From: Candidatus Nanopelagicaceae bacterium
Lineage (GTDB): Bacteria > Actinomycetota > Actinomycetes > Nanopelagicales > Nanopelagicaceae
NCBI GenBank assembly: GCA_009694285.1
Contig: SHVK01000001.1
Span: 1-64,000 of the forward strand
Reading direction: 5' to 3'
DNA length: 64,000 nucleotides
Of the stretch, positions 7,979 through 54,105 are shown piece by piece. Numbering within the stretch: position 1 is the first letter of the stretch; each line of letters begins with the position of its first letter. The position numbers were made by a program, and so were the translations under genes. The notes beneath the pieces are model-generated. The model saw only the letters and a list, made by a program, of their open reading frames with translations, did no database searches and was not told the DNA's origin.

Positions 7979-8959
7979 TTGGGCCTGCAGATAGCACAGA
8001 TTGGCGAGGGAGCGCTCATTGCCGCCCTGGGTGAAATCTTTAGCCAAGGCCAAAATCTCAATAATCAAAGAAATTTACTCTTTGGCATTGGCGACGATGG
8101 GGCGGTTTTAGCGCCAAGTGCATTAGCAACTGTGGCAACTATGGATTTAGCTGTTGAAGATGTTCACTTTAAAACTGATTGGTCTACAGCGAAGCAGATT
8201 GGAGCAAAGGTAGCGGTTGCCAATATTGCTGATATTTACGCAATGGGCGGAGAGCCGCACTTTTTGTTAGTTGGAATTTCATTAACTGGTCAAGAGGAAG
8301 TGGAGTGGGTACTAGATCTTGCTCGCGGGATTGCAGAAGAAGCTAAGAAAGTTGGGGCGCAAGTAATTGGTGGGGACACTGTGCGGGGCGAGAAGATAAC
8401 AATTGCAATTACCGCACTCGGCAATACAGGTGAACCTATTTATCGAAGTGGTGCAAAAGTTGGCGACCAGGTAGTTATCTCTGGACTTCCTGGTGCATCT
8501 GCTGCAGGCCTAGCTTTATTGAAAGCCGATAAAAGGGAATTATTTCCGGAGATTGTGAAAGCACATCTGCAACCTTCAGTAGACGGCAAGAAAGCCCATG
8601 CGTTAATTTCTGCAGGTGCAACAGCTATGTGTGACCTAAGTGATGGATTATTAGTTGATGTAACGCGCATCAGTGAAGCAAGTGGCGTTGGCATAAAAAT
8701 TGATCTTGATCATTTGGATTTATCTTCACTTATCGAAGCAGGCACTGCTCTGGCAGTTGATCCGATGAGTTGGGTTTTAACAAGTGGAGAAGAACATCTT
8801 TTTATCGCGACTTTGCCGGCAAGTGCGGAACTTTCAAAGGGCACACTTCAGATTGGCAAAGTAGTAAATGGATCGGGCGTCGAAGTGCTCGGAGAATTTT
8901 CAGATGCTCGAACAAGAATTGGAAGTACTTCGAAAGATTGGCAACATTTTGAAAAATAA
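7979..8959 (+). CDS. thiL: Thiamine-monophosphate kinase
   Basis: ThiL (326 residues) phosphorylates thiamine monophosphate to the cofactor thiamine diphosphate. The N-terminal GIGDDGAVLAP, the TMDLAVEDVHF metal-binding segment, ANIADIYAMGGEP and GGDTVRG are family signatures. Translation appears to start at TTG 7979, with GAAAGGA six bases upstream; no ATG in frame keeps the conserved N terminus. It is divergent from the RAM-domain gene. Elsewhere in the window a TPP-riboswitch-controlled transporter and kinase may supply its substrate. A 50-base gap separates it from the rhamnosidase. Confidence 0.95.
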   Translation: MGLQIAQIGEGALIAALGEIFSQGQNLNNQRNLLFGIGDDGAVLAPSALATVATMDLAVEDVHFKTDWSTAKQIGAKVAVANIADIYAMGGEPHFLLVGISLTGQEEVEWVLDLARGIAEEAKKVGAQVIGGDTVRGEKITIAITALGNTGEPIYRSGAKVGDQVVISGLPGASAAGLALLKADKRELFPEIVKAHLQPSVDGKKAHALISAGATAMCDLSDGLLVDVTRISEASGVGIKIDLDHLDLSSLIEAGTALAVDPMSWVLTSGEEHLFIATLPASAELSKGTLQIGKVVNGSGVEVLGEFSDARTRIGSTSKDWQHFEK

Positions 8960-52163: not shown

Positions 52164-52742
52164 CTACATAATTTGAGTATTGCTACCATCAACAAAAATC
52201 TGACAATTTTCTTTAGTCTGATCCTGTAGGAAATGTGCTCTTTCGCGCTCCTGCCACTTCAACATATAGGGCAATATCTGGGCACCATCTCGATTCAAGA
52301 CTCTGGCTAACCCTATTTGCGGGCCAACTTCAATCCAGATGGTCAGATCTGCTTGTTGGCGAATCATCGTCTGAGCAGCACCAACGCCTTCTAAAATTAA
52401 AATTTCAATATCTCTGACTTCAACCGATGGCCCGTACTCGTTGCTAGCCCAATTAAATTTCTGATACTTAACGCCTTGATGCTCTTTTAGTGGATAGGTA
52501 ATCCATTCTTCCAAATGTTTAGTCAGAGTGGCTGTAAGGGCATCCTCCCAACCGTTGTACAGATCATCCATATGAATTGTTGTAACAGAGTTCAATTTAT
52601 TGGAAAGCTGATTTGCTAAAGAAGTTTTTCCAGAACCCGCGGGGCCGTCGATTGCAATTAAAATTAGTCCTTCTTTACGCAAGGAAATTTCTACGATCGC
52701 AGAAACAATTGGTTCAACTTCATGCTCTGGAAAATTAAACAA
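52164..52742 (-). CDS. P-loop kinase coupled to the thiamine transporter
   Basis: The 192-residue protein is a uridine-kinase-like P-loop phosphotransferase: IDGPAGSGKTSLA Walker A near residue 32, then TIHMDDLYNGW and the ILEGVGAA segment. The frame is open further upstream but would overlap the transporter; a TTG at 52742 begins one base after the transporter stop, giving tight coupling. It belongs to the TPP-riboswitch unit. I infer a thiamine-salvage kinase; a true uridine or nicotinamide-riboside kinase is the alternative. Confidence 0.75.
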   Translation of the reverse strand: MFNFPEHEVEPIVSAIVEISLRKEGLILIAIDGPAGSGKTSLANQLSNKLNSVTTIHMDDLYNGWEDALTATLTKHLEEWITYPLKEHQGVKYQKFNWASNEYGPSVEVRDIEILILEGVGAAQTMIRQQADLTIWIEVGPQIGLARVLNRDGAQILPYMLKWQERERAHFLQDQTKENCQIFVDGSNTQIM

Positions 52743-52743
52743 T

Positions 52744-53331
52744 TTATAAATTTCCCTTAGATTGCTTATGCTTTTTAAACCAACGTGTCCAGCCAAGAAT
52801 TGCCATTGCAGTAAATACTGCATAAACCAATGAGGTGAAGTAATAGCCTCCGCGGGCGTATTGAACTGTTAGGACGACATCAACTGCAAACCACAACACC
52901 CAACTTTCCCACTTCTGGCGGACCATCAAAATTTGCGCAGCACCACTTCCAAGTAAGCCAAAAGTGTCGCTCCAAATTGCAACAGCGCCTATAGATTTTA
53001 AATATGGGGCAAAGCCAATCCAGATCGCACTAAAGATTCCTAGCGAGATCCACTTACTTCGTAGTGACATATTGGAAGGTTGGGCACCTTTTTTACCCCA
53101 ACCAAACCAGCCCCAAATTCCGAATCCAATAAAAATGAATTGAGTTGCAAAACTTGCGTAGTACTTGGCTTGATAAAACCAGATTGCATACAGAATAGAA
53201 CTGGTCACCCACCATGGCCAAGTTATCTGTTTCCCAGTTGTTCCAAGATAGACGGCAATTAATGAAACTATCGCAGCCGTGAATTCAAGAAGTGATACGT
53301 CATATCCCCAAGCAGTGAATAAAGTAAACAT
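52744..53331 (-). CDS. pnuT: PnuC-family transporter, probable thiamine uptake (PnuT)
   Basis: The 195-residue membrane protein of the PnuC family has about seven helices, with conserved WPWWVTSSILYAIWFYQAKYY and a WESWVLWFAVDV segment. PnuC members carry nicotinamide riboside, riboflavin, deoxynucleosides or thiamine. The TPP riboswitch directly upstream points to thiamine. GGAGG lies four bases before the ATG. A kinase that could trap the vitamin follows one base after the stop. Confidence 0.9.
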   Translation of the reverse strand: MFTLFTAWGYDVSLLEFTAAIVSLIAVYLGTTGKQITWPWWVTSSILYAIWFYQAKYYASFATQFIFIGFGIWGWFGWGKKGAQPSNMSLRSKWISLGIFSAIWIGFAPYLKSIGAVAIWSDTFGLLGSGAAQILMVRQKWESWVLWFAVDVVLTVQYARGGYYFTSLVYAVFTAMAILGWTRWFKKHKQSKGNL

Positions 53332-53338
53332 TTATCCT

Positions 53339-53416
53339 CCTTCCAATCCGCATTACCGGACTGGTTCGACGGTCGGTGAGATTTTCACCCTCTCAGCCTT
53401 GGCGGCTCCCGTGTGT
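53339..53416 (-). promoter_or_regulatory. TPP riboswitch (THI element)
   Basis: Read on the minus strand, ACGGGAGCC is followed by GGCTGAGAGGG (core CTGAGA at 53396-53391), then ACCGACCGTCGAACCAG and TCCGGTAATGCGGA. These are the conserved pyrimidine- and pyrophosphate-helix elements of the THI-box. The 3' end runs into the GGAGG of pnuT, which fits control of translation start by TPP. Confidence 0.92.
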
Positions 53417-53467
53417 TGTAAACCTTATCAGTGGCGTAAGCGATTGTGATCTGCGAAAATCCTATAT

Positions 53468-53800
53468 GTGAACCATCTTTCCTATATTGCCATGTTGGCC
53501 TTTACCGTTGCCGGATCTTTCTGGCTGGAGATTGCATTAAAAGTCCGAGTACTAAGGCGGATCAGAAGAGCGATTCTGGCAATCGCTCCGGTAGCACTAT
53601 CTTTCCTGCTTTGGGATGCGTACGCAATTGCAAATAAACATTGGTATTTTGATAAGCAACAAATAATTGGCTTATTTGGTCCACTAAATATCCCGCTGGA
53701 AGAGTACTTATTTTTTATAGTGATTCCTCTTGCAGCGATCATGACTATTGAAGCGGTACGAAATGTTAAAAAGAATTGGATCATCGGTGATGAACAATGA
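53468..53800 (+). CDS. crtYc: Lycopene cyclase subunit, CrtYc type
   Basis: The 110-residue protein has three TM helices and the PLEEYLFF motif of the heterodimeric lycopene cyclases of Actinobacteria and archaea. Together with CrtYd it closes the beta- or epsilon-ring of lycopene. It starts with GTG, divergent from the riboswitch, and its stop overlaps crtYd by four bases. No SD is visible. Confidence 0.9.
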   Translation: MNHLSYIAMLAFTVAGSFWLEIALKVRVLRRIRRAILAIAPVALSFLLWDAYAIANKHWYFDKQQIIGLFGPLNIPLEEYLFFIVIPLAAIMTIEAVRNVKKNWIIGDEQ

Positions 53801-54105
53801 GCTATACCCAAATTTCGATATTCGCTGTCATTGTTGCTGTGATTCTAGATCTTTTCATAATTAAAACGACGCTCTTGAAGAGGGCTGCCTTTTGGACCTC
53901 TTACGCAATAATTTTGCCTTTTCAATTTCTTACTAATTGGTGGTTAACATCACAAAATATTGTTATGTATGATCCTGAGATGATTATCGGCACACGGTTT
54001 TTTTCAGCACCCGCAGAAGATGTTTTCTTTGGGTTTGCATTAATTTTATCAGTTTTATCTCTTTGGATTAATTTAGGAAAACGTTCGAGCGCAAACCGCG
54101 CGTAA
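53797..54105 (+). CDS. crtYd: Lycopene cyclase subunit, CrtYd type
   Basis: The 102-residue partner of CrtYc has three hydrophobic helices and the APAEDVFFGFAL motif (PxED), the second half-site of the cyclase. The ATG overlaps the crtYc stop (ATGA). Its 3' end overlaps the convergent crtB gene by 33 bases, so the two carotenoid operons share their ends. Confidence 0.9.
   Translation: MSYTQISIFAVIVAVILDLFIIKTTLLKRAAFWTSYAIILPFQFLTNWWLTSQNIVMYDPEMIIGTRFFSAPAEDVFFGFALILSVLSLWINLGKRSSANRA

Follow-up and report, generated by a model that had tools for sequence, protein, structure and literature searches.

The window, which is the whole stretch of 64,000 nucleotides analysed here from a Candidatus Nanopelagicaceae bacterium, contains a cluster on the minus strand, spanning 53417 to 52164, in which an RNA element is followed by a transporter gene and a gene for a P-loop kinase. 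The same contig also carries thiL. The features considered are as follows:

53332 to 53417, minus strand: riboswitch aptamer ahead of pnuT, a variant of the THI (TPP) type (RF00059, our own model R1, compensatory changes)
53391 to 53396, minus strand: CUGAGA, the J3/2 pyrimidine-recognition motif, intact (invariant in alignment A1)
53343 to 53364, minus strand: P4 and P5 merged into a single 8-bp helix capped by GUAAUG, with J4/5 absent on both strands (cmscan gaps, locus comparison, fold)
53336 to 53344, minus strand: ribosome-binding site GGAAGGAGG, which overlaps P4 on its 3' strand (sequence)
52744 to 53331, minus strand: pnuT, PnuC family, 195 aa, predicted thiamine importer (PF04973, TIGR01528, published acI PnuT)
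52164 to 52742, minus strand: predicted thiamine kinase, P-loop, 192 aa, TTG start at 52742 and stop at 52164
8057 to 8950, plus strand: thiL, thiamine-phosphate kinase (HMM match span; TIGR01379, 232 bits, above cut-off)

An initial annotation had described a PnuC-family gene with a P-loop kinase one base past its stop, and this arrangement is confirmed by the family matches (PF04973, PF00485) and by the sequence, in which the TTG start of the kinase lies one base past the TAA of pnuT. It had also reported ThiL, which is indeed present, although the gene had been noted at 7979 and the HMM match covers 8057-8950 (+). The window belongs, by gene content and relatives, to the acI/Nanopelagicales order; named Nanopelagicales as well as freshwater actinobacterial MAGs have a matching locus. 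Two adjoining lycopene cyclase domain genes of the CarR type (53468-54105, plus strand) are divergent from pnuT and adjoin phytoene synthase and desaturase genes.

A relaxed cmscan scan of the short stretch returned an RF00059 match at 53323-53422 on the minus strand (36.7 bits, E 4.9e-6). This is the genome's top match to the model, but it falls below the Rfam gathering score of 54.3 bits, so that it does not qualify as a member and a default Rfam scan of the window gave no hit. Our own model, R1, the training alignment of which includes the window's own element (L004), gives it 78 bits. Compensatory changes occur in 7 of 18 pairs in an alignment of 41 elements, and the CUGAGA motif with ACC, our test for pyrimidine sensing by J3/2, is invariant in the 41 sequences (alignment A1); a role of J3-2 residues in pyrimidine recognition is on record (PMC3764141). 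What had been called a clear THI element is, accordingly, an RF00059-related and covarying RNA, as the proposed Infernal search bears out with its sub-threshold match, but it is a structural variant rather than a regular member.

The pnuT-linked variant shares with the RF00059 TPP riboswitch the CUGAGA, ACC and GUAAUG motifs (the GUAAUG loop being unchanged in pnuT-linked elements) and the P2/P3/P3a layout, and differs from it in lacking J4/5 on both strands and any P1 helix above chance, P1 in pnuT-linked aptamers not rising above the shuffled background. In the window's element, the AU and CG of the P4-P5 internal loop are missing from the cmscan alignment. Throughout the 68 pnuT-linked loci, which comprise 28 distinct P4/P5 sequences, J4/5 is deleted or down to 1-2 bases (68/68), leaving a helix of ~8 pairs with no interruption or almost none, which is most often perfect or has a single bulged base on its 3' side. 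The comparison set, 16 other THI elements of the same order, retains a two-sided J4/5 with three to four pairs on its inner side; in the thiC-linked element L106, the 5' side of J4/5 is reduced and the 3' side GCG is retained. In known structures, residues G60, C77 and G78 of J4/5 hold the pyrophosphate together with its metal ions, G78 contacting the pyrophosphate directly (PMC3764141), and pnuT-linked elements fail this test for pyrophosphate sensing. All kinase-linked RF00059 copies in the order score below the Rfam gathering score because J4/5 has been lost, whereas most other copies score above it. Finally, the position of the ribosome-binding site over the end of P4 suggests control of translation, which remains an inference.

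The assignment of the transporter to the PnuC family is firm (PF04973, E 4.9e-35, 52744-53331; TIGR01528, 72.5 bits), and, being a PnuC-family protein under a THI element, it satisfies the definition of PnuT, while thiamine transport itself is inferred. According to passages of Kang et al. (2017, PMC5301498), pnuC is preceded by THI elements in four complete acI genomes and was proposed to encode PnuT, and acI bacteria miss nearly all enzymes of thiamine de novo synthesis and salvage. The window's gene shares with that acI PnuT its lineage, a PnuC-type gene with a THI element, and the proposal of thiamine import. The reading of THI-pnuC as a thiamine importer in the initial annotation is consistent with these data but, as the same passages indicate, had already been published for acI in 2017; a downstream kinase or an altered aptamer is not discussed in the passages found of that paper. 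PnuT reportedly works by facilitated diffusion (title of Jaehme et al. 2018, cited in PMC7749635), in which case coupling to a kinase would also serve to retain the vitamin. In Bacteroidetes, the usual partner of PnuT is TPK (tnr3), and the pnuT-tnr3 operon resembles the present cluster in that a TPP-riboswitch-controlled PnuT is cotranscribed with a thiamine-activating enzyme; it differs in that Tnr3/TPK yields TPP directly, whereas here a P-loop kinase and ThiL would be required (PMC5613172).

The kinase is a member of the PRK/uridine kinase superfamily (PF00485, E 8.4e-9, 36 bits against a cut-off of 22), and no named NCBIfam equivalog was found for it. The nearest NCBIfam model, NF005115 (PRK06547, hypothetical protein), gives 111 bits, short of the cut-off of 173, so that membership is not met, and the test for Udk uridine kinase fails with 42 bits each for TIGR00235 and NF004018 against cut-offs of 220 and 180. 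Nor is the protein a ThiN/TPK, no PF04263 being detected in it, or a ThiK, as the test for TIGR02721 (cut-off 299 bits) is not met and the kinase locus is not among the matches listed. ThiK has a fold of the aminoglycoside phosphotransferase type. The kinase is thus unrelated to ThiK or ThiN, as had been claimed from the outset; with E. coli ThiK (YcfN) it would share only the proposed reaction, thiamine to thiamine phosphate ahead of ThiL, and not the fold.

The AlphaFold2 model of the kinase has a mean pLDDT of 95, and its best solved relatives in Foldseek are uridine kinases and a possible uridine kinase, 1rz3, with nicotinamide riboside kinase 1 a weaker structural match. Invariant in the kinase alignment (A2) are the GxxGxGK P-loop (G33..G36.G38K39), D59 and Y62 of a DxxY motif, E118, and R147, R151 and D152 of the lid region. 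The fold and catalytic residues are common to the uridine and nicotinamide riboside kinases of PF00485; the present kinase family is set apart by two specific tryptophans, Trp65 and Trp98, that are invariant in A2, by the absence of a long insert, and by its thiamine gene context. In a profile alignment to uridine kinases, W98 aligns with the Phe of the acceptor-site YDF motif, and the long insert that follows DxxY in those enzymes is missing from the kinase. By inference, W65 and W98 may hold the rings of thiamine.

Of 151 genomes sampled from the order, 145 have the kinase. In 98 of these 145, the kinase is preceded on its own strand by an RF00059 match 518-649 bases away, a distance equal to the length of pnuT; a further 36 kinase genomes have no RF00059 call, and inspection by eye of 20 of them revealed the element in 19, the remaining locus stopping at a contig edge. 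Furthermore, a Nanopelagicales MAG (L171) carries element, pnuT and kinase at an unrelated locus beside odhA, so that the linkage is not only that of an inherited neighbourhood, while L166 has the kinase at the second locus without pnuT. At this second locus (L171:5313-11059, L166:5998-11011), the kinase is two genes away from odhA/kgd, which encodes a TPP-dependent enzyme. The acI THI-pnuT-kinase-pknB locus was also encountered in L172, a contig titled as a Bifidobacterium breve MAG, which is most likely mis-binned.

In a quick tree without bootstrap, in which one branch (L121) is very long, the order's kinases cluster together, separate from the homologues of other actinomycetes (99% SH-aLRT). 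Those homologues, from Streptomyces-sized genomes and others, have no evident thiamine neighbours, as judged from short loci with poor ORF calling in GC-rich DNA; hence, the family as a whole need not consist of thiamine kinases. No thiamine context was seen at the four kinase-linked loci outside the order (L173-L176). Two genomes (G113 and G081) possess a second, distant P-loop kinase (L131 and L132, respectively) that groups with the homologues of other actinomycetes.

A survey of pathway genes in 42 genomes yielded no TPK/ThiN (PF04263, 0/42 at E 0.01, with positive controls) and no ThiK above the TIGR02721 cut-off (0/42). ThiL was present in all 42, 40 of them over cut-off, while ThiC was detected in two and ThiE over cut-off in six; neither ThiC nor ThiE was detected in the window's genome. 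ThiL accepts thiamine phosphate only and, to our knowledge, the sole route to thiamine phosphate without ThiE is phosphorylation of imported thiamine. The near-universal ThiL in the near-absence of ThiE and ThiC implies that some other source of thiamine phosphate is needed. The checks suggested at the outset, namely for thi genes in the genome and for co-occurrence of the kinase with THI elements and ThiL in the absence of ThiN, therefore come out in favour of the proposal. A distant, ThiK-like protein of the aminoglycoside phosphotransferase family, scoring 57-78 bits against TIGR02721 (cut-off 299), is encoded in about half of the 42 genomes, namely the kinase-less G035 and G110 and about 18 others (for example, G113:C54:8405-9076), and could share a thiamine-kinase role where present.

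When all 296 genomes surveyed in the order are considered, the kinase is present in 275 and ThiE exceeds its cut-off in seven. Among the 108 high-quality genomes, all 103 without ThiE have the kinase (103/103), and the only three that lack it all possess ThiE and belong to one genus. ThiE also occurs in two more kinase-less genomes, a fourth member of genus g9 and one less complete genome of g15, which makes four genomes of g9 and one of g15 with ThiE in place of the kinase; the remaining kinase-less genomes are incomplete assemblies. Since absence of the kinase represents one or two evolutionary events, significance should not be inferred from genome counts. ThiE and kinase are found together in two genomes, both with a riboswitch-controlled thiamine or HMP importer.

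The position of the kinase gene is informative in this regard, as it lies between carotenoid genes and pknB in the inspected kinase-containing genomes of the family. In the kinase-less G035, G110 and G134, this very slot is filled by thiE, a canonical TPP riboswitch with thiO, and thiG. Two of these genomes, G035 and G110, have another riboswitch, which governs a CytX-type HMP permease. Cells of this type would import HMP, make their own thiazole and obtain thiamine phosphate through ThiE, and so would not need a thiamine kinase. Elsewhere, the transporter is exchanged: the riboswitch precedes ThiB, with an ABC permease gene adjoining, in G007, G059, G076, G081, G089, G108, G113, G123 and G129 (ThiB-type identity being checked by HMM in four), and YkoE in G044. 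In these ten genomes the kinase keeps its slot, with neither a THI element nor a TPP-linked pnuT there, and no PnuC of any kind was found in G007, G044, G059, G076, G081 and G129. Mapped on the kinase tree, the transporter undergoes eight state changes, or seven without L166, the transporter of which is unknown. The kinase persists through these exchanges of thiamine transporters, as would be expected of a thiamine kinase and not of a nicotinamide riboside kinase.

Taken together, these data lead us to propose, with a probability of roughly 0.86, that THI-pnuT-kinase is a vitamin B1 uptake-and-trapping operon that includes a thiamine kinase, an activity that is inferred in the absence of any assay. 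PnuT would import free thiamine, the P-loop kinase would convert it to thiamine phosphate and so trap it in the cell, and ThiL, encoded elsewhere, would add the second phosphate to give TPP, while binding of a thiamine compound to the upstream RNA may switch off translation of the operon. Independent comparative findings, though no biochemistry, give good support to the suggestion that the coupled kinase is a thiamine kinase: the enzyme tracks the import of thiamine and is missing where thiamine phosphate is made by ThiE, while thiamine as its substrate and thiamine phosphate as its product are inferred. The completeness of genome G000, at 86%, is counted against the thiamine-kinase reading.

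If the kinase were instead a nicotinamide riboside or uridine/cytidine kinase that partners an ordinary PnuC, with the THI element being incidental, this would agree with its closest solved structures, uridine kinases with nicotinamide riboside kinase 1 a weaker match, and with the classical cargo of PnuC proteins, which is nicotinamide riboside. It is nevertheless unlikely, since the kinase persists without PnuC where the THI element sits on ThiB or YkoE, is missing only where ThiE makes thiamine phosphate, and gives way to thiE, thiO and thiG in the slot of the genomes that lack it. A nicotinamide riboside kinase acting with PnuC was rejected, given the presence of the kinase in genomes without any PnuC.

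We regard as very improbable that the enzyme is a thiamine pyrophosphokinase, transferring diphosphate, with ThiL retained for another reason: its fold is that of kinases that transfer a monophosphate, and ThiL is retained in all 42 surveyed genomes (40 over cut-off) when nearly all of them lack ThiE and ThiC, so that something must supply thiamine phosphate, even if its product is not known and PnuT of Bacteroidetes is usually paired with TPK (tnr3, PMC5613172). Equally hard to sustain is the view that the kinase is a bystander of unrelated role, linked to pnuT only through the conserved crt-pknB neighbourhood. The kinase does adjoin pknB in every genome of the family that was inspected, whether pnuT is present or not, but the triad recurs at the second locus in L171, absence of the kinase coincides with ThiE and thiazole genes in the same slot, and no other enzyme converting thiamine to thiamine phosphate was found across the surveyed order. 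Pure pknB synteny was rejected on the basis of the second-locus triad and the ThiE pattern.

In most lakes, acI is the most abundant group of bacteria. Its members are auxotrophs for vitamin B1, and the first descriptions of their genomes reportedly left open the step from imported thiamine to TPP. The thiamine kinase proposed here would fill this gap across the order and, if confirmed, extend the known thiamine kinases by a new protein family. Its gene also occurs in complete genomes from the lineage. No kinase of such a type tied to thiamine, no novel thiamine kinase, and no TPP riboswitch variants without the pyrophosphate loop were found in the open literature. The presence of the transporter and the THI element in acI is already known. 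Judging from the open literature, three points seem to be new, namely the assignment of the kinase, its connection with ThiE loss, and the absence of the pyrophosphate loop.

The TPP riboswitch is the commonest riboswitch class, and the present variant offers a natural experiment on ligand change, with the pyrimidine half untouched and the pyrophosphate half gone. The loss of J4/5 makes the ligand an open question, as TPP may still bind, or else thiamine, thiamine phosphate or HMP. It is possible, though we advance this only tentatively and with rather more doubt than conviction, that the order's aptamer, derived from a TPP riboswitch without a pyrophosphate pocket, senses thiamine, thiamine phosphate or another unpyrophosphorylated vitamer, alongside a third non-orthologous family of thiamine kinases. 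If so, uptake and phosphorylation would be tuned to the substrate and not to the finished cofactor. Downstream of the thiB- or ykoE-linked elements lies a CCGTG-type stretch that is complementary to P2 on its 5' strand (seen in L105, L108, L110, L112, L114, L116, L118, L120, L122 and L130), which is likely an expression platform that is absent from the pnuT-linked elements.
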